Assembly (NCBI GenBank): GCA_958450365.1
Contig: CAUEEP010000759.1
Coordinates: 3,205,880 to 3,269,879 of the forward strand
Length of the DNA: 64,000 nucleotides
Source: Mesorhabditis belari
Lineage: Eukaryota; Nematoda; Chromadorea; Rhabditida; Rhabditidae
Reading direction: 5' to 3'
Shown: piece by piece, positions 17,401 to 42,999 of the stretch
How the letters are laid out: each line of letters begins with the position of its first letter
How positions within the stretch are numbered: the stretch's first letter is position 1
Made by a program: the position numbers and the translations under genes
Notes under the pieces: model-generated
Seen by the model: the letters and a program-made list of their open reading frames with translations, nothing else
The model's database searches: none
What the model was told of the DNA's origin: nothing

Positions 17401-20400
17401 TCAGGAAACGGTAGCTCTTTAGGATACTGTAGCTCTTCAGGATACTGTAACTCTTCAGGATACTGTAGCTCTTTGATACATATCTCTTTGTATACTGCAC
17501 CTCTGGCGCTACCGTAGCTGGGTAAAGTACTGTAACTTTGTTGCAAGTACTCTCTGAGGTAGCTCTGAGGTGGAGTACTCACATTCTAGTTCAAGATCTA
17601 AAAATCTATCTAAACTCTATTTTCTCTTCCAGGGTGCCAATTCCCGTGTGCACATGTCATGTCGTCGTGGCTTCATTTGTCGAATGAGAGTCGGCCCATT
17701 GGAGGCTTTGCATCGACTCCGAAATCGTCGACCCCTTTTTACGCATGGCGGACATACATATGTGGTCATGCATTGCACTGGGTGAGTTCTATTGTCTTTA
17801 TTTGGATTCGGCTTCTTCTTCACCGTCTCGAAATGTTGATCTTAGCAGCCAAGCGGTTGCTTTGTTAAGGTAAAATGAGATTAAAACCATTGCTCTGCAG
17901 CAGGAAAATGCGTAAGATGTCATTTTCATGAGTACTGTAGCTACCTAGCGGTACTAAGGGCATGTAGCACAAATCTGATTACAGATTTGGATTCCTCATC
18001 CCCGAAAACCTCAGAGTACAAATTTTCAGCTTACTATTAGGTTGGCAAAAAAGAAATGCGCGTTTTCGTTAAAAGTTTATTTTATTATAAAAACAAGATA
18101 ACAATACATTAATCCAAAAGGTATTCGCCATCTGCATCAATGACTTGTCGCCAACGTTCACGCAGAGAATGGATGCCCTTCTTGAAGAACTCGACCGGCT
18201 GCGACTCGAAGAAGTTGGACACCGAAATTTGGACCTCGTCACGGTTCTTGAACTTTTTCTCGGCCAAGAAGTGGTGCATTGATCGGAACAGATGGTAGTT
18301 GGAAGGCGCCAAATCTGGGCTGTATGGCGGATGAGGCAGAACTTCCCAGCCCATTTCTTCAATTTTCCGCTGGGTGATTTTTGCGACATGCGGCCGAGCG
18401 TTGTCGTGGAGGAATTTTGTCGACGGCTTGACGCCTTGACGCCTTGACGCCGCAGCGCCTGGTCCACGCGGTCAAATTGGCCTTGGTAGAGGTTCGCCGT
18501 AACTGTTTGACCCGAATCCAGAACCTCAAAGTACACCAGGCCTTTACTGTTCCACCAAACACAAAGCATCACCTTTTTTCCGTGGATGTCCGGTTTTGGA
18601 GCTTCACCGGGGTCCAACCACTGCCGCTTTCTTGCTGTGTTGGCGTATTGGATCCACTTCTCATCCGACATAACAATGGAGTCGAAAAACCCACTGTTCT
18701 TGGCGCGGTGAGTGAGAATTCCGGCGATTGCGATGCGTGTCGCCTTGTTTGCCTCGGATAGCTTATGCGGTACCCATTTTCCGCATCTATTCGTCTTGCC
18801 CATGCCATGCAGATGGTTCTCAATGGTGACATGAGTGCAGTCGAACTGTTCTGCCAGGTCGCGAGTGGTTTGGCGTGGATCCGACTCAATGGCTTCCTTC
18901 AATGCGTCGTGGTCGATAATTTGAGGTCGACTCCCGTGTTTTTGGTCTTCCAAGCTTTCGTCGCCGTCTGGAACCATCGTTTACACTGACTTTCGGATAG
19001 AACATCTTCGTCAAACACTTGAGATAGAGCGCCACGAGCTTCAGCAGCCGATTTGCCTTGCTTAAATTCATGCCACAAGCAGGCCCGCAAACGAAATTTT
19101 TGGTCCGACATTTTCTAAACACTCTTTCTTGCAAAAAAACAAAGTAAACATAGACAAATTATATATCAAACGATGCGCAAGAACACGCTCTTTCCAATAG
19201 AATAAACTATTTTAAAAAATCTTTTACTGTGAATAAAATACAAATCAACAAACACGACGCTCATTTCTTTTTTGCCAATCTAATAGTTCAATTTGTTGTA
19301 ATTTTACGTTAACGCAATTTGTATTATCGCGTAGGTGTGACGGAGGGACAGACATACAGATGGACGCTGTAGTGGATAAGAGTAGTGGATAAGAGTAGTG
19401 GATAAGAGATGTAGTGGATAAGAGATGTAGTGGATAAGAGATGTAGTGGATAAGAGATGTAGTGGATAAGAGATGTAGTGGATAAGAGTCTTGTTTCCGA
19501 GACAAGCTGTCAAGTTTTTGCTCGGGTTCGATCCTTTCCTTTTGTTTTCATTTTATTTTCATGTTTAGCCGCCCGAATTTGCTCTATTTTAACTTTACAA
19601 TAAGTACAGTCGAACTTCGATATAACGAACTTCGACACAACGAATTTGAAATTCTAAAAGGTGCCCAAAATTTCTGCGTAACTGCCCCAGCCAAATGCAA
19701 TCAGTGGCCGTCCAGGGCAGCTATGCAAAAAATTTGAGGCACGTTTCAGGTTCGTGATATCGACGTTTTCGGTTCCGATCGATTCGTTATATCGAAGTTC
19801 GACTGTACTTATTGTAAAGTTAAAATAGAACAAATTCGAGCGATTAAACATGAAAATAAAATGAAAACAAAAGGAAAACATCTTTTAATTGATAATAAAC
19901 AAAATAGCACAAAATTAACAGCAATCTATAAAGTGAAAAACATAATTTAACGTTACATCTTGCACAACACATAAAAGCATACGTTCCACAAGTCATGGCC
20001 TCGCGTAAAACAATACTTTCAATTAATCTGACAAAAAACAAATGCACGGATGCAACAAAAATAAATGCAATGATTTGAAAACGAAAAAGAAGCGATGAAG
20101 CGGTGCTCCCATCGACTACCTCCAAATGGCGGCGACATCAATTGGAATGCGACGTTGCGCAAATGAGATTGCAAATGGAACCAAATGATATCTTTATGAG
20201 AACCAAATATGAACCAAATAGGAACCAAATAGGAACCAAATAGGAACCAAATAGGAACCAAATAGCAACCAAATATGAACCAAAATAGGAACCAAATAGG
20301 CTATGAACCAAATATGAACCAAATAGGAACCAAAATATGAACCAAATATGAACCAAAATAGGAACCAAATATGAACCAAATATGAACCAAAATAAGAACC

Positions 20401-23324
20401 AAAATAAGAACCAAAATAAGAACGAAATATGAACCAAATAGGAACCAAATATGAACCAAAATAGGAACCAAATAGGAACCAAATAACAACCGCGAAAATT
20501 CACATTTAACAATAATGCAACAAAAATAAATGCAATGATTTGAAAACGAAAAAGAAGCGACGACGCGGCGCTCCCATCGACTGCCTCCAAATGGCGGCGA
20601 TGTCAATCGGAATGCGACGTTGCGCGAAAATTAACATTTAAAATTTCGGACAGAAATTCAAATTGATCATCAACTTTAAAAAAACTTGAAAATCGTCAAA
20701 GTTCAAATGGCTCATGTCATTTGACCTTTCCTTGTGCGTATTTAGCGAATTTTAACCTTTCCCTCTCTTTAGATACATCAAAAACGCTCCTCCAGCCGGA
20801 ATCGAGGCCCCAGCTACATCATGCTTGGTGGCAATCGCTCGATTACAGGTAACAAAGCGAAAATTGCTCAAAATGAGCTAATGGATCGTAAAGCCAATAG
20901 CCAACAATTGTAAATGGATCGTTTTCGCAAACGTACATGACTTCCGTCTGTTTGAAAAATTTACCTAAAAAGCGCTTTGAATCTCGTTCTTTGTTCAGAA
21001 CAAAGCTGGATAATTGAGTGTGATAGAAAACTTGCGTTTATCAAAGCACAAAGTTCAGGTGGCTTCGATGCCGATTTGCGCGGATCCGACCACATCAACG
21101 CAATTCTCGGTGAGGGTGGCCGAGGATGGAAAGATGACATTCGTCGATCAACGAGCCACCGCTTTACTCAATCTCTCAATTGATCAGGTAGCAGGAAATG
21201 TACTTTGTGCTTAAAAATACACCCTTCTTGTAGTAGTAGTAAAGCAAACTCCAGTAATTTTTAGCTCCTCGGTCGATATTGGTGGCAAATTGTGCACCCG
21301 GGCGATGAGCAGCTGTTGCACGACGCTTTTCTCGCGTTGATTGCGAATCAAGTAAGTGAAATGATGGCTAGAGATGGATTTAGATGTTTTAGATATGTTT
21401 TAGATCTGTTTTAGATATGTTTTAGATACTTAGATACTTAGATACATACAGGGCGCGTCATAATTATTGCAACAAGATACTCAAGGCATTGCACACCAAG
21501 AAGTTTCACTGGAAGAAGATTTTTAAACAGAAATACCTTTATTTAACAGTAACAAATAAGGAAACAAGAGATCATTCGATATGACCGCCTTTTGCCTTGA
21601 TAACAGCCCTTAATCGGTTCGGATATGCCTCCACTGCGGCCCGAATGTCATCTTGAGGAGTCGCCTTCCATTCTTTGGCCAAAGACTTCTTCGTCAAAGA
21701 CTTCTTCAAGGTCAAAGACTTCTTCAAGGTCAAAGACTTCTTCAAGGTCAAAGACTTCTTCAAAGAATCCAAACTTGTGTGTTTTCGAGAGCAGACATTA
21801 GCCTCTAAGATTGCCCAAATGGAAAAGTCCATCACATTGAAATCCGGTGAGTTTGGAGGCCATTCATCCTTGGTGATCACTGAGGGAAAGTTGGCCACAC
21901 ACCAGTCCTGAACCGTCTTCTTCGTGTGAGCGGGAGCTCCATCTTGCATGAAGATCCAATTTTGCTTGTTATTGGCTTTACACGCTCATGACATCACATT
22001 CTTAACATGATATTCTTGACATCACATTCTTGACATCACATTCTTGACATCACATTCTTGACATCATATTCTTGACATCACAAGCGGTCTTTGAACTCTT
22101 GTTGCAATAATTATGACGCACCCTGTATACATATATAAATCTATCCATTTCCTCGATTTCAGCCCCTCCGTGTCACCTGTCGAGTGCGGACAGCGACTGA
22201 TTATGTGAACTGTTGCATATCGGCCTATAAATTTTTGAATCCGTACAGGTGGATTGATTTTTCATATTATTGATTTTTTTTCATATTAGATATACTGTAA
22301 CTTTACTTTATAGTATTCATTAGTATAGTATTCATAGTATAGTATTCATTTGCAGTGACGCTTTCGAATACGTCGTCGCCACACATCAAACGATTCCCGC
22401 CGACGATCCGACTTGGCAACCACCGCACGACGCTTTCCCGGTGAGACTTTGAGCAAAATTTGGCTAGTTCTGATTTTTTTAAAGTCTTGAGCTCACTCTT
22501 AGACTCTATTTTAGAGGATTTTGGTTATATTTTACTGAAGTTTATCAAAGTTCATCAAATAAACTGATCGGACTTGTGAACTTTTGCTGACTGACTCGGG
22601 TAGCTAAAGTGTGGACTACTAGAACTGTAGCTAGAACTGTAGCTTTTCCCCAATTACTGTAGCTTTTCCCCAACTACTGTAGCTTTTCTCCAATTACTGT
22701 AGCTTTTCTCCAACTACTATAGCTTTTGCTCTAAGATATTTCAAAGATTGTTTGGGTTTTTCAAAGAAAAAGTCTCTTAGACAAGGCAGGACTTGGTCTA
22801 GCTTGGTCTGGATTTACCGTAGGTTCAACCCTAGATCCTGGTCCAACCCTAGATCCATCAGGTTTAGACCTGGATTCTGTCCGGATTCTGGCTGGGCTCT
22901 GGCTTAGTTACAGACCCTAAGGCTCTGATCTAGCGTCCGGAATCTGCATATTTATTACCCTAATCCTTATCGATTTACCGTATCAATTACTTTGCTCAAT
23001 CAATTGCTTTTGGCTTTTAGCTGAATATAGATTTTGGTGGTTGGATCACTCTTTAACACGCCCGTGAATGATCTGAGAACTTTGAACTTTGATTTTGCAA
23101 TTATAGTACACAACTTTCCAATAACAATATTCCAGCTGCAGAATTGATTATTTAGCCTTAAATCTAAACAAAGCCTATTCCAGACAGCCCCAGGCCAGGG
23201 TGATTACGGTGCAGCGGCAGCGGCTGCAGTGGCCGCGAGCACCGATTGGCAACAAGCTGAGCGGATGGCGCAATGGCCTTGGGAACACCCGAATGCCGCA
23301 TTGCATCACTCATTCCGACAATAA
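14493..23324 (+). CDS. aha-1: AHA-1 / ARNT-type bHLH-PAS transcription factor
   Basis: Twelve exons keep frame across every junction: 14493-14545, 15570-15687, 16175-16330, 16487-16642, 16698-16832, 17633-17781, 20773-20848, 21059-21187, 21265-21351, 22163-22248, 22356-22440, 23184-23324. They total 456 aa, close to the length I recall for C. elegans AHA-1 (about 453). The start at 14493 gives [10 protein letters not shown], and exon 2 carries the GKYARM segment expected in the family. The basic region and helix-loop-helix span about residues 44-109 ([12 protein letters not shown]), PAS-A about 110-281 and PAS-B about 282-400. The C terminus is short, with an Ala run ([11 protein letters not shown]). 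ARNT proteins are nuclear partners of class I bHLH-PAS factors; worm AHA-1 is known to pair with AHR-1, HIF-1 and CKY-1. Intron 6 (about 3 kb) holds a mariner, a foldback and arrays. Confidence 0.95.
14630..14715. repeat. GGTAAATGAT/GCT tandem repeat in aha-1 intron 1
   Basis: A 10-bp GGTAAATG-type unit repeated about seven times just downstream of exon 1. Confidence 0.75.
15279..15520 (-). mobile_element. Mariner fragment with 12-bp array, aha-1 intron 1
   Basis: The - strand reads [20 protein letters not shown], closely like the mariner at 18037 ([17 protein letters not shown]), followed by a diverged [14 protein letters not shown]. Between them lie about five copies of a 12-bp unit (GAAGCTAAACGA) at 15325-15383. 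Part of the fragment (CATTGCTGAGAAGATGAGGA) is duplicated at about 14903. Confidence 0.7.
15786..16070. repeat. 20-bp minisatellite in aha-1 intron 2
   Basis: About 14 copies of GCTAGACCTTGCCCGACCTG, very homogeneous until about 15990 and diverged after. The homogeneity suggests recent expansion. Confidence 0.95.
17085..17475. repeat. 18-bp minisatellite in aha-1 intron 5
   Basis: About 21 copies of GTAGCTCTTCAGGATACT with TTTAGG variants. Being 18 bp, it yields open hexapeptide-repeat frames on the - strand (ILKSYS), which I do not call a gene. Confidence 0.9.
18037..19283 (-). mobile_element. Near-complete mariner transposon in aha-1 intron 6
   Basis: The left end is TTAGGTTGGCAAAAAAGAAA, and the right end on the - strand is TTAGATTGGCAAAAAAGAAA. 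TA duplications lie at 18035-18036 and 19284-19285. Its 1247 bp is the classic mariner length. It lies antisense to aha-1. High identity between the ends suggests a fairly young copy, but the transposase frame is broken twice. Confidence 0.95.
18112..19111 (-). pseudogene. Mariner transposase, two frameshifts
   Basis: Starts at 19111 with [20 protein letters not shown] (HTH). A first frameshift falls near 18965-18975, after CKRWFQ. The next frame gives [20 protein letters not shown], then SDEKW (first catalytic Asp) and [16 protein letters not shown] second frameshift at 18427-18450 comes from three copies of the 8-mer CTTGACGC. After it the correct frame has HDNARPHVA (second Asp), [18 protein letters not shown] (third Asp, D34D type) and ends DADGEYLLD. 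All three catalytic residues survive, so the gene is dead only through small indels. Confidence 0.95.
19368..19495. repeat. 16-bp tandem repeat
   Basis: About eight copies of GTAGTGGATAAGAGAT with shortened variants, in aha-1 intron 6. Confidence 0.9.
19533..19882. repeat. Foldback with ~100-bp arms around a pogo-like TIR
   Basis: Arms 19533-19632 and 19782-19882 are almost perfect inverted repeats. Their inner parts contain TACAGTCGAACTTCGATATA, resembling pogo/Tigger-type terminal repeats. A unique centre of about 150 bp lies between. It could be a MITE, or a MITE whose flank became inverted. Confidence 0.85.
19950..20640. repeat. Dispersed repeat copies 3 and 4 flanking a GAACCAAATA array
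   Basis: Copy 3 (about 19950-20160) and copy 4 (about 20513-20640) match the blocks at 13540-13960. Between them, 20165-20492 is a 10-bp GAACCAAATA array of about 30 units. All of it lies in aha-1 intron 6. Confidence 0.85.
21449..22125 (-). mobile_element. Internally deleted Tc1-like element in aha-1 intron 9
   Basis: The ends CAGGGCGCGTCATAATTATT and (reverse complement) CAGGGTGCGTCATAATTATT differ by one base, with TA duplications at 21447-21448 and 22126-22127. At 677 bp it is roughly half the usual length and keeps only the C-terminal transposase part. It holds two internal arrays, 21683-21765 (18 bp) and about 21990-22082 (14 bp). Confidence 0.92.
21572..21955 (-). pseudogene. Tc1-like transposase C-terminal fragment
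   Basis: The frame contains [15 protein letters not shown] (second DDE Asp) and [20 protein letters not shown] (third acidic region), then [20 protein letters not shown] and a KAKGGHIE end. An 18-bp array coding a repeated SLTLKK is inserted in frame between [11 protein letters not shown] and AKEWKA. The N-terminal half, including the HTH and the first catalytic Asp, is missing. Confidence 0.9.
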
Positions 23325-35377: not shown

Positions 35378-35393
35378 AATAAAGTTTTTTATT
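35378..35393. terminator. Facing poly(A) signals of two convergent genes
   Basis: AATAAA at 35378-35383 (+) suits erm-1. TTTATT at 35388-35393, which is AATAAA on the - strand, suits the H2C2 gene ending at 35564. They are 4 bp apart, so the two transcripts probably overlap at their 3' ends. Confidence 0.6.
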
Positions 35394-35563
35394 TTTGTAC
35401 AAGCAGAGAGAAATTTGCACGTGAAATGTACGAAACGATTCTTGTGTGAAAGATCGTTTCTCTAGATCTTTCGCAATTTCATCTCAATAACCAGCTCGAG
35501 GGTTTTATCCTGAAAATGGTTTTACAATTTTTGAGAAATTTGATTTGTTGATTCTAGTAAACC

Positions 35564-38500
35564 TTAAAGCGAATTTAAACCCACTTTAATTTCGTTCTCG
35601 GTTCGATAACCGACACAGTAATACCCGTCCGGAATCGCCACTTCTCCGACAATTGTCTCCATTGGTCTAAAAAGATTTAACAATTTGTTTAACGATTTGC
35701 ATTTAACTGTCCTTTTTTTCCTTATTTAGCTGAAACTCACGTTCCGTCAAGATTTGCCGTCTTTTGAGCCGCTGCGAAATCGGTAATCTCTTTTGCGGTG
35801 GCTTTGATGAAAGAAAAGGATAGGCGCTTCACGCATGTGGTGTCCTGAAGAGGATTTTTTTGGTATGGATAACAGTTGATTTTTAAGTCTTAGACTTTGG
35901 TGTTAGCTGGGCACCAGTTGGCTTTGTTAGCTTTGGACTTTGTTCGCTAGATAGCTGTAACCACCATCTTTTCTCACCTCTTCTTTTGTTTCCCATGTCG
36001 ATTTTGCTTGAATTGGCACAATTGGTTTGTAGCCGATCGGGCAGAGAATATTCCCGAAAGTCGTGCGCAGAGTGCAACGCGGCTCACTAAACAGTTGAGT
36101 TTAGTGAAGAAAAAATGAATACTTACGCATTTGTAGAGTCACTAGCGGATTGTTGAAAGCTTTGGATTTCCTAAAATTGGAAATAATTACCGTAAATACT
36201 CTAATGGAAGCCATAGGCGCGTCGTGTAGTCTGATTTTCTCTTAAACAAAAGCTCAAATCTTGGCACTAGTACGTTTGTTTCTATCGCTCATATCTCGAC
36301 ACTAGTACGTTTGTTTCTAAGTGTTTAGATATCAAATTAAAGTAGAAAAATAGGGGAATTTTTTGAGCTATAACACAAATCTTAAGCATTAACCAGTGCT
36401 TAGAAAAAAATGATGGAAAAGTGACAAAAGAAGCCGATTTTTTATCATTTTTCAATCACGTTTTTCTAAGCACTGGTTAATGCTAAAGATTTGTTTTATA
36501 GCTCAAAAAATTCCCCTATCTTTCTACTTTAATTTGATATCTAAACACTTAGAAACAAATGTACTAGTGTCGAGAATATGAGCGATAGAAACAAACGTAC
36601 TAGTGCCAAGATTTGCGCTTTTGTTTAAGAGAAAATCAGAATACTCGACGTTCCTATGGCTTCTATTAGAGTATTTACGGTACGCTAAAGACGCTAAAGA
36701 CGGTACGCTAGTTGCAATAGACAAACCTCTTCCGATAGGGAAGAGCGATAGCCAAAAGAAAAGCTATAGGGACCCATCGAGCGCTTGTTTGGCTCGGTTT
36801 TCAGTGGATCGTTGAAGCTTTCGTGAGCGATTTGGTGGGGCGCAGATTTTGACGAGGTTTCGGTCGAGTTTTGAACTCTAAATTGATCGTACGATTCATG
36901 TGACGTAAATACATAAATATAAATATCTTATGTATTGCCAATTTCAATCAAGACTCACCCATTTTGCTCGGAAATTTGCTTTCGAGGCGATTTCCTTTTC
37001 AACGGTGGCTCATTGGAAATCGATTGGGATTGGACGGGCTTCTGAAATTAAAAAAATGAGCTTTTATGTGGAAATTTTATGAATAACAGTTTTTGCTTCT
37101 TTACTCATTTCAAAATAACAAACTTTTGGCGATGATCGTTTAGCGTTGGCTTGTTGATTCCGCTTATTGTGATTGATTGAGGAGACTGATTGATTGATTG
37201 CGTTTATCGAGGTCTTGTTTTCTTCAAAAATTGCCTCTTTCAGCTTTTTTGGCGACTTCTTGAGCAGGATTTCTAAAAATATTGAATATAAATTTGTTTT
37301 ATAAAGTTTCTTACCAGACTTTTCCGGAGATGAGCTTGGAATCAAAGGATTTTCGTCCTTTATTTTGTTGTTTGTCAGTGAACAAGTTGGAATCTAAAAT
37401 AAGGATATGTAATATGTTTTCAGCTATCAATTTACGATCAAATCGGCGGCCAGTCGGTCAAGAACTTCTCGCGATATGTTACCTGAATGTTTTCGATTAA
37501 AAAAACCAAACTTTCTTAGCTTAAAAACACTAACAAACATTAAAAACCAAAGGTTCTTAGCTTAAAAACACTGAAAAACATTAAGAAACCAAACTTTCTT
37601 AGCTTAAAAACACTAACAAACATTAAGAAAACTAACTTTCTAGCTTAAAAACATTAAAAACCAAACGTTCTTAGCTTAAAAACATTAAAAACCAAACTTT
37701 CTTAGCCTAAAAACACTGAAAAACCTTAAAAACACAACTCTCTAGCTTAAAAACATTAAGAAACCAAACTTTCTTAGCTTAAAAGCAATAAAAACATTAA
37801 AAACCTAACTTTCTAGCTTAAAAGCATTAAAAACCAAACTCTCTTAGCTTAAAAACACTGAAAAACGTTAAGAAAACCAACTCTCTAGCTTAAAAACATT
37901 AAAAACATTAAGAAACCAAACTCTCTAGCTTAAAAACACTAACAAACATTAAGAAACCCAACTCCTTAGCTTAAAAACACTAACAAAGGTTAAAAACCAA
38001 AGTTTCTAGCCTAAAAGCACTAAAAAACATTAAAAACCCAACTCTCTAGCTTAAAAGCATGGAAAAACATTAAAAACCAAACTTTCTTAGCTTAAAGGCA
38101 TCAAAAACATTAAGAAAACCAACTTTCTAGCTTAAAAGCATTAAAAACAAAACACATACCATAATCAAGGTCAAACTTGCGACGATTGTTAGGCAGAAAA
38201 GTAATGCTGATCCCGAATTCGGCGTCTAGAAAAGAAACAATTGAATTGAATAAGCTCAAAACGTACTTTTAAAGTCACTCTCAATCGGAACGGGTCTTCT
38301 CTGCTTGTTCCCAGTTGTGCCACAAGTTGAACATTGTTGAGCGACTGTTCGCAGCGATCGACTCATCCCTCGCCAGAAAACCGTCTTCGAGAGGATCTTC
38401 GAGCTAAATGACGGCAAAATTGAAGCAACAAACAAATGATCTTTTACATATATTGATCGGGAATGTGTTCAAGCATGTGATGGGCGGCGCGAGCGATCTC

Positions 38501-41500
38501 GAAAGTCTCTTCGGAACAAATCTAAAAGAATTTATAAAGCTTCAAATTCGAGAATTTATAAAGCTTCCGAGAACTAACCAGAATTGGATGCCCGGGAAAC
38601 AGTCTCCAAACAAGAACACGTGAATCCGCCTGATCAACGAGATACGCTCGAGCGTGCGATTCGAGAATCGTTCGCTCGCCTCGGCTACTGAATTTGAGTA
38701 CTTTCTTTAGGTCGATTAGCACTAGCACTAGATTAGCACGATTAGCACTGTTTTTCCTCGCGAGTAATGCGTTTTCTAAAACGCAAACTTGCCAAAAAAT
38801 TATCGTAGTTTTCATGAAAATTTGCCATTTTCGCCAAAAAATGAGGGGGTGGCTAGTTTGCGTAAAATTTTTTGCTCAACTCACCATAACTTTCTTCTTA
38901 GTCAGTCAATCGTTATGATTTTGGTGTCATTTTGTTGAACTTATTGAGATCTACAAAATGACATCAAGAGCAGAAATATTGGCCCATTTAGAAGAAAGTT
39001 ATGGTGAGTTGCGCAAAAGACGTTGTGCAAATGATCTAGTTGCGCAAAAAATTTGGCGCAAAGTGACAAAAAACCACCAAAAAATGACAAACGACGATTT
39101 CTACAGGGTACGCCAAAATTTCTGTCACCTCACTCACTGGGTTTATAGATTTTAAGGCAAATTTCAATCAACTTTCGATTTTTTTTGAGCTTGTTGGTTT
39201 TCGGTACAGTTTACCCCCGACAATTGGGTGTTTTTGGGTGGTTCAAGTGGTTTTTTTGGGGGAATTTTGTGCGTAGAATCCGAATTTCAACATCCCAGGT
39301 GCGGATTAAGCGTTTTTCACAAAAAAATTGATGACAGAAGGCAAATCCATCGTGGAAACGGTGGTTTTTGTTTATGTGTGTAGCCTTTGCACCGTCTGTT
39401 CAAGGCCTTTGCACTGTCTGTTCAAGGCCTTTGCAAATGTTCAAGCGCTCAAAGATGCCATTACCCGCGAGTGGAATGCCATTCCAAGAAGCACGATCAA
39501 GAAGCACCATCAAGAAGCACGATCAAGAAGCACCTTCAAGAAGCACCATCAAGAAGCTAGTTGACAGCATGCTGAGTCGAATATTTGACGTGATCAGTCG
39601 TCAGGAACAGACAACAAAATATTAAACTGTTATTGTTATAAATAAACCTTGTTATCATAAAAATTGAACAAAAATGCAACAACGACACCAAAATTTGGGC
39701 GAGTGGCGTATGGTTTTGCACCGCACTATATAGGTATCGCGTTTAAAAACGTAGATGCAAAGGTAGTTGGGGGAAATCTTCTAAGACTTCTAGACTTCTA
39801 GACTTCTAGCTCATGCTAGAAGTCTTGGATTGTCTTTGAAGCTAGAGCAGCTTGTTTCTTGCTTCAGACTTCAGACTTCAGATTTTCACAGTTTTAAACA
39901 CTCACTAAGAATTCGGGAATTCTCCATCAATCTTGTATCGGAGTAGAGACACGTGTCGAATTCTCGGCACCGAGTATTCGAAGATCTTTTCGGGACCAAT
40001 GCGCTAAAAGAATTGTTTTATGGAAACCTATTATCAGAAAAATGGAAATATAAAGTTTCTTTGAAATATAAAGTATAAAACAAACAGCCGCCAGCTTGGA
40101 TACACGTTTATTGTGACCGTCCATCGAAGGAGTTCCGTTTAAACGAACGCGGATTCGATCGCCTGGAACACCCGAGCCGACTTCGACCATAACGATCACT
40201 TCTAAAATGATACTAGATTGCTGTATCACTGTCCTAGTTTTTAATTTATCCAGTTTTCTTCCTCTTTCTCAAACCCACTTTCCCAATCGAGTCCTTCCGC
40301 AACGGCGCTCTTTCGTCCAAGTCGTTGGCATTCCTAGAAAACGTATTCATTGATAAACAATTATATTTTAAAATAAATCTATTAAATAGAGCTATTAAAT
40401 CTATTAAGTAGAGCTATTACACCTATTAAATAGAGCTATTAAATCTATTAAATAGACCTATTACATCTATTAAATCTATTAAATCTATTAAACCTATTAA
40501 ACCTATTAAACCTATTAAATCTATTACATCTATTAAATCTATTAAATCTATTAAACCTATTAAATCTATTAAACCTATTAAACCTATTAAACCTATTAAA
40601 TCTATTAAATCTCTTAAAATAGTTAGATTCATTACGTACAAAGCAATTCGATCGAACAGTTGTCGCGTCGACCCAAAGAGAACCACCATTAGGTCCATAT
40701 GTGAACATTTTGGAAAGAAGATCGAAACTAGAATTGTTGAATATTTTGATGGAAATTCGGAAATTCTTACTTAAAATAGATAGATAGATAAATAGATCTA
40801 AATCTAATACTTAAAAGTCTTAATCTTAACACATTGACGACCGCGTATCTTTTGCGAAACGGTCGATTTAGTCAAGGGGATCAAAATGAAAAATCAAAAG
40901 CCAGAGCTTAAGCTTAGCTTAGCTTAAAAGCTCTAAAATTCGAATCCAGCCTTAAATTTACGCCAAAAAGCTCCATCTAATTTATTTTCACAATTTTAAG
41001 TCAATATAATGATTTAGGTAAACTGCAATCGGTAATTGGTGGCAAGCGGAATTGAGCCCGCGAGCAAAAGTTGACATTGGTTTCGGAGTCTAGCCCAATA
41101 TCTCCTAGGCTGCTGTTGTTTTTTCCTTTCGGCGTGGTGCTCTCTTATAGGTAGCGGTTTGCCAAAAATTGCTGAAACTTTGCCGTTTTTCTCGAAAACC
41201 AGGGCTAATGAGGAAAAAATAGAAAATAGAGGTTTCTTAGAATTCTATTGTAGCATTTTGTAGCTAGATCCGGTTTCGAAAATCGGTGGTAAGTTGAAAC
41301 TGTGTGGTAACAGTGGTAGATTTTCTAGTTTCTAGACCACTGGGCCATGGAATCCGAGATAACAGCCGGTTTTTCCGCTTTTTACGAAAAATCACCAAAC
41401 TTCCTAACAAAACTAACGTCGGATTCGGAAAGAGGACCCAAAATTACATGCTCTTGCAAATTTTGAGCTCATTTGGTTCCAGCCATTCACGAGAAACAGC

Positions 41501-42999
41501 CGTCACGTGGTCCGAAAGGGGAATCGAACCAACAATTGGAGCCTGAGATATTCCCTATTGGAGCCTGAGATTGACCTCGCGCTTCTTAAACCACTTAGCT
41601 ATGAAAGCCGAGGGAAAAGCCGGGAAGTGTTTCTCGTCTATATGAGATCTAAATCCATTTTCTTAAAACAAAACGAACAGCGGTTTTCTCAATGAGTGCC
41701 CACATTGGAGATGACATTGTTGCCATAACATTTCAACTTCGCCTTCAACAAGCACATATCTGAAATGATTAGTACTAGATAAATCTAACGCTTAAATAGT
41801 ATTTAAATTCAATTTCTATTGGGTTGTCCAGTTATGGATGCGTGTTTTTTTACTATTTTGTAAATTTCTCATAATACCGAAATCAAGAAAAAGATATATA
41901 TGAGTATTATTCGAAAGCTGAAGATCTCCTCTATATTTTGATCTAAAAAGTTTTTGAATTTGTTCAGCTTTTGGGCAAATTGACTGCACAGAAGAAGGGG
42001 TGGCCAAAAAAAAATGGAAGGGTGCCTTTGGATCAAGTTTTGGCTCCGCTCAAATTGAGTTAACCGTTTGATGTTTGACCAATAGATATATCAATACAAC
42101 TTTTTTTTAAATGTAAGAATTTCAGAGCATCTTTACTTTTCTTTTCTGGGCGGTTATTTTACAGCATAAAACTTGAGGAATAGCTAAGCTGAAATGGGTT
42201 TTTTCGAAAACGACTTCTCCCTTTGTGCAGTCAATTTCCCAAAAAGTTGAATGAATTCAAAAACTTTTTATTCCAAAATGTAGAGGAGATCTTCAGCTTT
42301 CGAAATGATATATAACACTCATATACATCTGTTCGATATCTTGAGAAATTTACAAAATAGTAAAAACGCGCATTCATAATTGGACAACCCAATATAACGG
42401 AATATTTCTAGCCTTTTTGTACCTCTCTTCCCCGTTTCTCCGCACTGACAGAAGCCCATTCCGATAGAAATAATCTGTCCTAAAGAAATTTTCAATTAAA
42501 TTTTAATAGATTTAGATATTTCATAAGTACTTACTTGGTTTTTGACGAATTCCTCCCGAAATTGCGTACGATTTTCTCATAGTTCTCCACTCGCATTCCT
42601 CCATAAGGAGCGCCTTTCTAAAAATAGATAGGTAAAATGTAAATTGAATGTCAAATAGATGTCAAAATTGAAAAATTTCGACAAGTTACAATACTTCTAT
42701 TTGATTTAAAGTATTATAATGTTAAGAATTTAGATCCTGCATGCCAAAATAAACTAAAAAAATAAATAATTCACCTCTGTTAGCTGATTGATCCCATTCT
42801 CGTCTTCAGATTCATCCGATTCATCCGCACGATCCCAAGAAAATGTCGGAGACAAAAGAGAAATTGAGGCATCTAAAGGTAAAGATTGAATCTAGATTAT
42901 CATCGTCTAAAATATATTTTTCAATCACCAACCATCATTTCCTTTTACTTTACAAGGAGTCTTTATTATCGTTTCATCCTTGATGCTCACAGAGTCCAT
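35564..42999 (-). CDS. Integrase-type H2C2 zinc-finger protein (unnamed)
   Basis: Twenty-one exons on the - strand: 42933-42999, 42775-42872, 42535-42617, 42423-42479, 40640-40727, 40279-40333, 40086-40201, 39906-40003, 38579-38687, 38448-38521, 38267-38403, 38160-38225, 37436-37482, 37315-37393, 37124-37272, 36959-37041, 36727-36877, 36127-36170, 35978-36086, 35741-35844, 35564-35666. They sum to 1917 bp (638 aa) with all phases matching. Residues 272-309 give H-x3-H-x29-C-x2-C with KILSKTVFWRGMSRSL between, the HHCC zinc-binding module found N-terminal to gypsy/retroviral integrase cores. No D,D-35-E core follows. Instead comes a Ser/Lys-rich tail with PPLKRKSPRKQ (possible nuclear signal) and a C-terminal segment (VGEVAIPDGYYCVGYRTENE). 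The N terminus is acidic (DESDESEDE). This suggests a domesticated integrase finger; the function is unknown. Confidence 0.8.
36188..36682. repeat. Foldback MITE with ACCGTAAATACT ends
   Basis: 495 bp with arms of about 200 bp. The ends TACCGTAAATACTCTAAT and complement are exact. It sits in the intron between exons 17 and 18 of the H2C2 gene. The same end motif bounds the mariner relic at 58627-59401. Confidence 0.9.
37498..38155. repeat. 30-40-bp imperfect tandem repeat in an intron
   Basis: About 20 units of TTAGCTTAAAAACATTAAAA plus ACCAAACTTTC with variable length fill the intron between exons 12 and 13 of the H2C2 gene. Confidence 0.9.
38838..39060. repeat. Palindromic MITE, family A second copy
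   Basis: Shares the inverted core CTCACCATAACTTTCTTCT with 27221-27445. The outer ends differ. Confidence 0.7.
39325..39625 (+). mobile_element. Tc1-like transposase C-terminal relic with internal array
   Basis: The + frame reads NVQALKDAITREWNAIPRST, then (after a repeat) KLVDSMLSRIFDVISRQEQT and TKY, the usual end of Tc1-like transposases. Between them lie about four copies of a CAAGAAGCACNAT-type unit (39485-39560). A second small duplication (CTGTCTGTTCAAGGCCTTTG, 39390-39437) lies just upstream. It sits antisense in an intron of the H2C2 gene. Confidence 0.75.
40375..40620. repeat. CTATTAAAT/C tandem repeat
   Basis: Nine-base CTATTAAAT units and longer composites fill most of the intron between exons 5 and 6 of the H2C2 gene. 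Confidence 0.9.
41045..41110 (-). pseudogene. Possible tRNA-like fragment
   Basis: The - strand has GGCTCAATTCC, a diverged B-box, and an AGCCTAGGAGAT-like A-box region. It resembles the better tRNA-like copy at 41515. Low certainty. Confidence 0.25.
41515..41607 (-). pseudogene. tRNA-like sequence with internal duplication
   Basis: On the - strand, A-box TAGCTAAGTGG (41591-41601) and an exact B-box GGTTCGATTCC (41520-41530) are in tRNA order. Between them ATCTCAGGCTCCAAT is duplicated (unit about 25 bp), so the sequence cannot fold as a normal tRNA. It is either a tRNA pseudogene or the head of a SINE. Confidence 0.5.
41819..42392. repeat. 574-bp foldback MITE with TTGGGTTGTCC ends
   Basis: The ends TTGGGTTGTCCAGTTATG and (complement) TTGGGTTGTCCAATTATG are flanked by TA at 41817-41818 and 42393-42394. 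Long inverted arms repeat AGGAGATCTTCAGCTTTCGA. Mariner-type ends, no coding sequence, in intron 4 of the H2C2 gene. Confidence 0.9.

Follow-up and report, generated by a model that had tools for sequence, protein, structure and literature searches.

A Mesorhabditis belari gene with an integrase-type HHCC module, probably one of a tandem pair, and no detected integrase core

A 64,000-nucleotide stretch of the genome of the nematode Mesorhabditis belari (assembly GCA_958450365.1, contig CAUEEP010000759.1, forward-strand positions 3,205,880 to 3,269,879; hereafter the window, from whose first letter all coordinates are counted) contains on its minus strand, at 42999-35462, a gene of 23 exons whose 674-amino-acid product carries an integrase-type His-His-Cys-Cys (HHCC) zinc-binding module (module 2) that, at the level of sequence profiles, is real. 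Upstream of it lies what is probably a second, divergent HHCC module (module 1), forming a tandem pair with it. Judged from the sequence, domestication is the likeliest origin of the gene, and the explanation that we favour, with reasonable but limited confidence, is that an integrase N-terminal unit was captured, and probably duplicated, in a nuclear, non-catalytic protein that would bind DNA or oligomerise. The probable tandem pair is the unusual part of the gene and was missed in a preliminary description of this DNA.

The spliced translation of the 23 exons is identical to a deposited M. belari protein (P0001), whose record reads 'unnamed protein product, partial' and whose UniRef name begins 'Integrase zinc-binding domain'; it was found in a search of 5.8 billion proteins, in which the 7998 candidates with most shared words were scored. 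Because the match is exact, we accept the gene as real; it has two exons more than the preliminary description had given it and ends later. The multi-exon, in-phase structure proposed there holds, as a hand-made 22-exon model with canonical GT-AG introns also kept the frame across all joins, but the 21 exons, the 638 residues and the end at 35564 give way to 23 exons, 674 residues and a stop codon ending at 35462. With the stop included, 675 codons are open across 22 GT-AG introns, and the first base of an AATAAA, at 35393, lies 69 bases beyond the last base of the stop.

Module 2 has the ligands H299-x3-H303-x29-C333-x2-C336 together with FWRGM, and with either H298 or H299 as first ligand it conforms to the pattern HX3-7H X23-32 CX2C given for HHCC domains in excerpts of PMC5384227. 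The motif had been described earlier as perfect and as split across exons 10 and 11; it is present but divided between exons 11 and 12, and H-x3-H is only one of two readings, because an alignment with eight further HHCC domains puts the column of the first ligand one residue earlier, on H298 (H-x4-H). A profile search, which the preliminary description had proposed as a check, did match Pfam PF17921, although under the curated cut-off of 25.5 bits: the whole protein scored 20.0 bits (expectation value, E, 7.3e-4) and the module cut out alone 25.0 bits (E 2.1e-5), and we therefore count module 2 as a divergent relative and not as a curated member. Against a profile built from HHCC domains of the same genome it scores 21.6 bits, reached by 0 of 5000 shuffles and likewise by 0 of 5000 in which the ligands were held fixed. 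The gene is not among the 44 matches listed in a six-frame genome search with PF17921, because that search takes each exon separately and the module straddles two.

Two structure predictions, both made on the whole chain, bear on the fold. The best structural alignments of the modelled module 2 domain are with foamy-virus and lentivirus integrases, and two alignment rows place model residues 257-345 on residues 10-107 of foamy-virus integrase. With Foldseek, no viral model matched at E<=0.001; foamy-virus Pol fragments rank 18, 39 and 41 (E 0.12-0.31) in the best 50 of 545 rows. The prediction made without an alignment is unusable as a structure (predicted local distance difference test, pLDDT, 34.7), and its secondary structure runs helix, strands, helices in both modules. 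Sequence searches of the PDB returned no match at E<=10 for the whole 22-exon model and, for the modules searched singly, unrelated matches at E>=1.2. A zinc site that arose by chance or convergence, with no integrase ancestry, would be consistent with the Pfam score under threshold and with an alignment holding just four invariant columns; we regard such an origin as very improbable.

Module 1 spans residues ~80-162 (exons 4-7), where a predicted hairpin is followed by H118-x4-H123-x33-C157-x2-C160, the x33 spacing being one above the range of the ligand pattern. A longer profile of 11 rows, which includes the N-terminal extension, gives this region 9.5 bits, a score equalled by none of 5000 free shuffles and by 15 of 5000 in which the ligands were fixed; these counts are optimistic because the test followed sight of the pattern and the longer profile followed a weak result with the shorter one. 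Among 57 windows slid along the protein, the module 1 region tops all except those overlapping module 2. When it was compared with the 11 representatives singly, the shuffles as good per 1000 numbered 1 for L006, 11 for L021, 39 for L023 and 43 for L001, and 150 to 700 for the remaining seven. Both the longer profile and the short-core one contain near-duplicate rows. Intron 5 in module 1 and intron 11 in module 2 are both in phase 2 and both interrupt the codon that lies six residues beyond the second His; a shared offset arises in 3.6% of random placements (~0.036); the positions of the other module introns do not coincide.

Several results weigh against a second module. The short-core profile gives module 1 a weak 2.9 bits, with 71 of 5000 free and 434 of 5000 ligand-fixed shuffles as good, and the two modules compared directly are not significantly similar by BLASTP (E 1.2) or by hhalign on single sequences (P-values 0.5 and 0.37). 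They would fit an alternative in which there is a single HHCC module, used for dimerisation or for docking proteins but not touching DNA, and in which the upstream HxxxxH...CxxC arose by chance; docking would also agree with the stabilisation of multimers by integrase HHCC domains described in excerpts of PMC5384227. The shuffle counts with the longer profile and the common intron offset and phase argue the other way, and we consider this alternative rather unlikely and a tandem pair of modules probable.

No match to rve, the D,D-35-E core, is listed for the protein at a maximum E of 10, a setting under which HMMER filters still remove most matches above E ~0.1, and none of the 62 rve matches listed from the genome (108 candidates scored) is on contig C569. 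At the same maximum E, no Pfam match is listed for the linker, the tail, the C-terminal part or the N-terminus, searched as four pieces, and the protein has no Pfam match to a BTB domain, classical zinc fingers or an acetyltransferase-like domain. As the preliminary description had it, no integrase core was detected downstream of the HHCC module, and a Ser/Lys-rich tail follows it. Within that tail are three SP[KR][KR] motifs, at residues 425, 466 and 486, as many as are found in 1 of 20000 shuffles. SPKK motifs prefer the minor grooves of AT-rich DNA and fit the cyclin-dependent kinase consensus S/T-P-x-K/R. SPK(K/R) motifs are a mark of sperm histone tails in excerpts of PMC9903204. Beyond the tail, the C-terminal region (35978-35462, minus strand) is predicted with low confidence to form three strands, a helix and three more strands; the single match of this piece among PDB sequences (E 1.2) is unrelated.

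The gene is split by 22 introns and has no detected paralog. Of the 23 matches to the protein in the whole genome, 19 fall on the exons of the gene itself and the other four have E>=0.249, which together with the 22 introns upholds the earlier case against a recent retroelement. Three equal-scoring weak matches (C642, C179 and C702; E 0.249) cover residues 17-97 with two TGA codons, and the match on C704 (E 0.553) was rejected as a paralog and is apparently due to chance: it has no H-x3-7-H pair, no Pfam family matches its 66 residues, and its translation resembles the end of a carnitine acyltransferase. Protein searches with the whole protein, with residues 60-380 and with residues 540-674 returned only the deposited protein itself, although distant orthologs may exist because the search requires shared five-residue words. 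This absence of relatives from the protein collection, the repeat-rich surroundings with their transposase pieces, and an intron holding a member of a many-copy family resembling miniature inverted-repeat transposable elements (MITEs) could all be read as signs of a decaying, functionless retroelement integrase relic annotated as a gene. However, the reading frame is open across all of its introns, no integrase core was detected, and the element copies of this genome look different, with 28 of the 44 PF17921 matches listed lying in open frames of at least 400 amino acids; we hold a relic to be quite improbable. The broader proposal of the preliminary description, that this is a host gene, rich in introns and not mobile, which has an HHCC domain and no detected core, is supported by the profile, the modelled fold and the lack of core matches.

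The exons and associated features are collected in the table.

Exons and features of the M. belari HHCC gene (window coordinates)
Feature	Coordinates	Strand	Basis
Exon 1, aa 1-22	42933..42999	-	spliced translation identical to P0001
Exon 1, alternative donor used in initial 22-exon model	exon end at 42954	-	
Exon 2, acidic, aa 23-55	42775..42872	-	spliced translation
Exon 3, aa 56-82	42535..42617	-	spliced translation
Exon 4, predicted beta-hairpin, start of probable module 1, aa 83-101	42423..42479	-	model and profile
Exon 5, module 1 H118 and H123	41679..41759	-	
Exon 6, module 1 as far as C157	40640..40727	-	
Exon 7, module 1 C160	40279..40333	-	
Exon 8, inter-module linker, no Pfam match listed	40086..40201	-	
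Exon 9, linker	39906..40003	-	
Exon 10, module 2 N-terminal extension (helix and strands in model)	38579..38687	-	
Exon 11, module 2 H298/H299 and H303	38448..38521	-	
Exon 12, module 2 FWRGM, C333, C336	38267..38403	-	
Exon 13	38160..38225	-	spliced translation
Exon 14	37436..37482	-	spliced translation
Exon 15	37315..37393	-	spliced translation
Exon 16, Ser/Lys-rich tail, SPKK at aa 425 and 466	37124..37272	-	
Exon 17, tail, SPRK at aa 486	36959..37041	-	
Exon 18	36727..36877	-	spliced translation
Exon 19	36127..36170	-	spliced translation
Exon 20, start of C-terminal alpha/beta region (low-confidence model)	35978..36086	-	
Exon 21	35741..35844	-	spliced translation
Exon 22; if last intron is kept, stop at 35564 (end in preliminary description)	35585..35666	-	
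Exon 23 with stop codon	35462..35509	-	spliced translation
AATAAA polyadenylation-type signal	35388..35393	-	

Three introns hold repeats. In intron 4 (41814-42397) is a 584-base MITE-like element with inverted ends; at least 39 further near full-length copies with 94-96% identity were found (40 of the 941 candidates scored, itself included), and on this sequence evidence it belongs to a large family. The 495-base, nearly perfect palindrome of intron 18 (36188-36682), with arms 93-94% complementary, is perhaps another MITE-like insertion, and intron 9 (38857-39031) contains an inverted repeat with 85-base arms, 78% complementary and separated by 5 bases. Across the window, 92 merged tandem arrays of unrelated minisatellites, 26 of them of at least 200 bp, occupy 15636 bases, a high density as judged within this window only; none of the 92 overlaps an exon of the HHCC gene. 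Transposase pieces lie on the minus strand at 18072-18980 and 21575-21985 (PF01359, E 4.1e-22; DDE_3, E 7.9e-6, just under cut-off), and ARAGORN and Rfam scans of the window found nothing. Elsewhere in this genome, L021, L023 and L026 carry an HHCC group (KREDLYELLRQKH..LGHAGIG...QCEECQ) in open frames of just 115-190 amino acids, and may represent a further family in which the HHCC domain shares its frame with no core.

On the explanation that we favour, an integrase N-terminal unit, consisting of the extension and the HHCC zinc domain, would have been captured by a nematode host gene, where it is probably present twice in tandem, followed by the basic tail and the C-terminal domain. Each HHCC unit would fold around one zinc ion, and the units could bind DNA, pair with each other as in integrase multimers, or both; binding of DNA or protein is suggested by analogy with known HHCC domains and by the SPKK motifs. 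The tail might hold AT-rich DNA in the minor groove, carry the protein to the nucleus and perhaps be switched by cyclin-dependent kinases, with the whole protein acting as a chromatin-bound scaffold or a transcription regulator. It is possible, if tentative, that the two extension-HHCC units and the SPKK tail grip DNA, the core having been wholly lost, which would make a single chain the equivalent of that half of an intasome which grasps DNA. Excerpts of PMC13370393 report programmed DNA elimination from the genus Mesorhabditis. The protein could conceivably take part in DNA elimination or in the marking of chromatin, though nothing here specifically indicates such a role. If our explanation is correct, the gene, with its probable tandem pair and histone-type SPKK tail, would show how the half of an integrase that does not catalyse can be put to new use, for binding DNA or for oligomerisation, in a free-living soil rhabditid of a genus kept in laboratory culture. 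Single-worm RNA-seq of M. belari, M. monhystera, M. spiculigera and M. longespiculosa is named in excerpts of PMC10456839.

A literature query combining integrase zinc-binding domain, nematode and domesticated gave matches none of which, among those listed, contained the first term; one combining Integrase_H2C2 with nematode found nothing, and one on tandem integrase fingers in host genes found Imagin only, the absence of reports being limited to these queries. To our knowledge, captured integrase zinc fingers that lack a core are few. ZBTB11 is not known to have an integrase core, Spt10 carries an acetyltransferase-like domain, and GIN1 and NYNRIN retain integrase core sequence, resembling the nematode gene as host genes with an integrase HHCC domain. 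The last two, of vertebrates, are named in excerpts of PMC5384227, which also describe ZBTB11 as a transcription repressor of vertebrates that has at its N-terminus an integrase-like HHCC finger, HX6H(X29)CX2C, and cite the DNA-binding finger of yeast Spt10 as homologous to foamy-virus integrase.

As far as those excerpts go, the x29 and Cx2C spacing of ZBTB11 is identical to that of module 2, and both would be host nuclear proteins; ZBTB11, however, combines a single HHCC with BTB and zinc finger domains, whereas the nematode protein, with no such Pfam match, probably has two HHCC modules and also SPKK motifs. Spt10 shares the stand-alone integrase-type finger related to the foamy-virus fold, which in Spt10 serves to bind DNA; it differs in its acetyltransferase-like domain, to which the nematode protein has no match. 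In malacostracan crustaceans, according to excerpts of PMC12863088, Imagin is a single-copy multi-exon gene derived from an integrase-like element, and its amphipod form has lost the DDE domain and has a disordered region in place of the C-terminus. The nematode gene is likewise multi-exon, with no detected paralog and, like amphipod Imagin, with no detected core, but by that account the amphipod HHCC has degenerated, other Imagins keep a defunct core, and a Ginger1 origin and orthologs are known, whereas searches with the nematode protein returned its own deposited copy alone. Because ZBTB11, Spt10 and amphipod Imagin are HHCC proteins without a core, the principle is already known; what is new is the probable tandem arrangement of HHCC modules, together with SPKK motifs, in a nematode.
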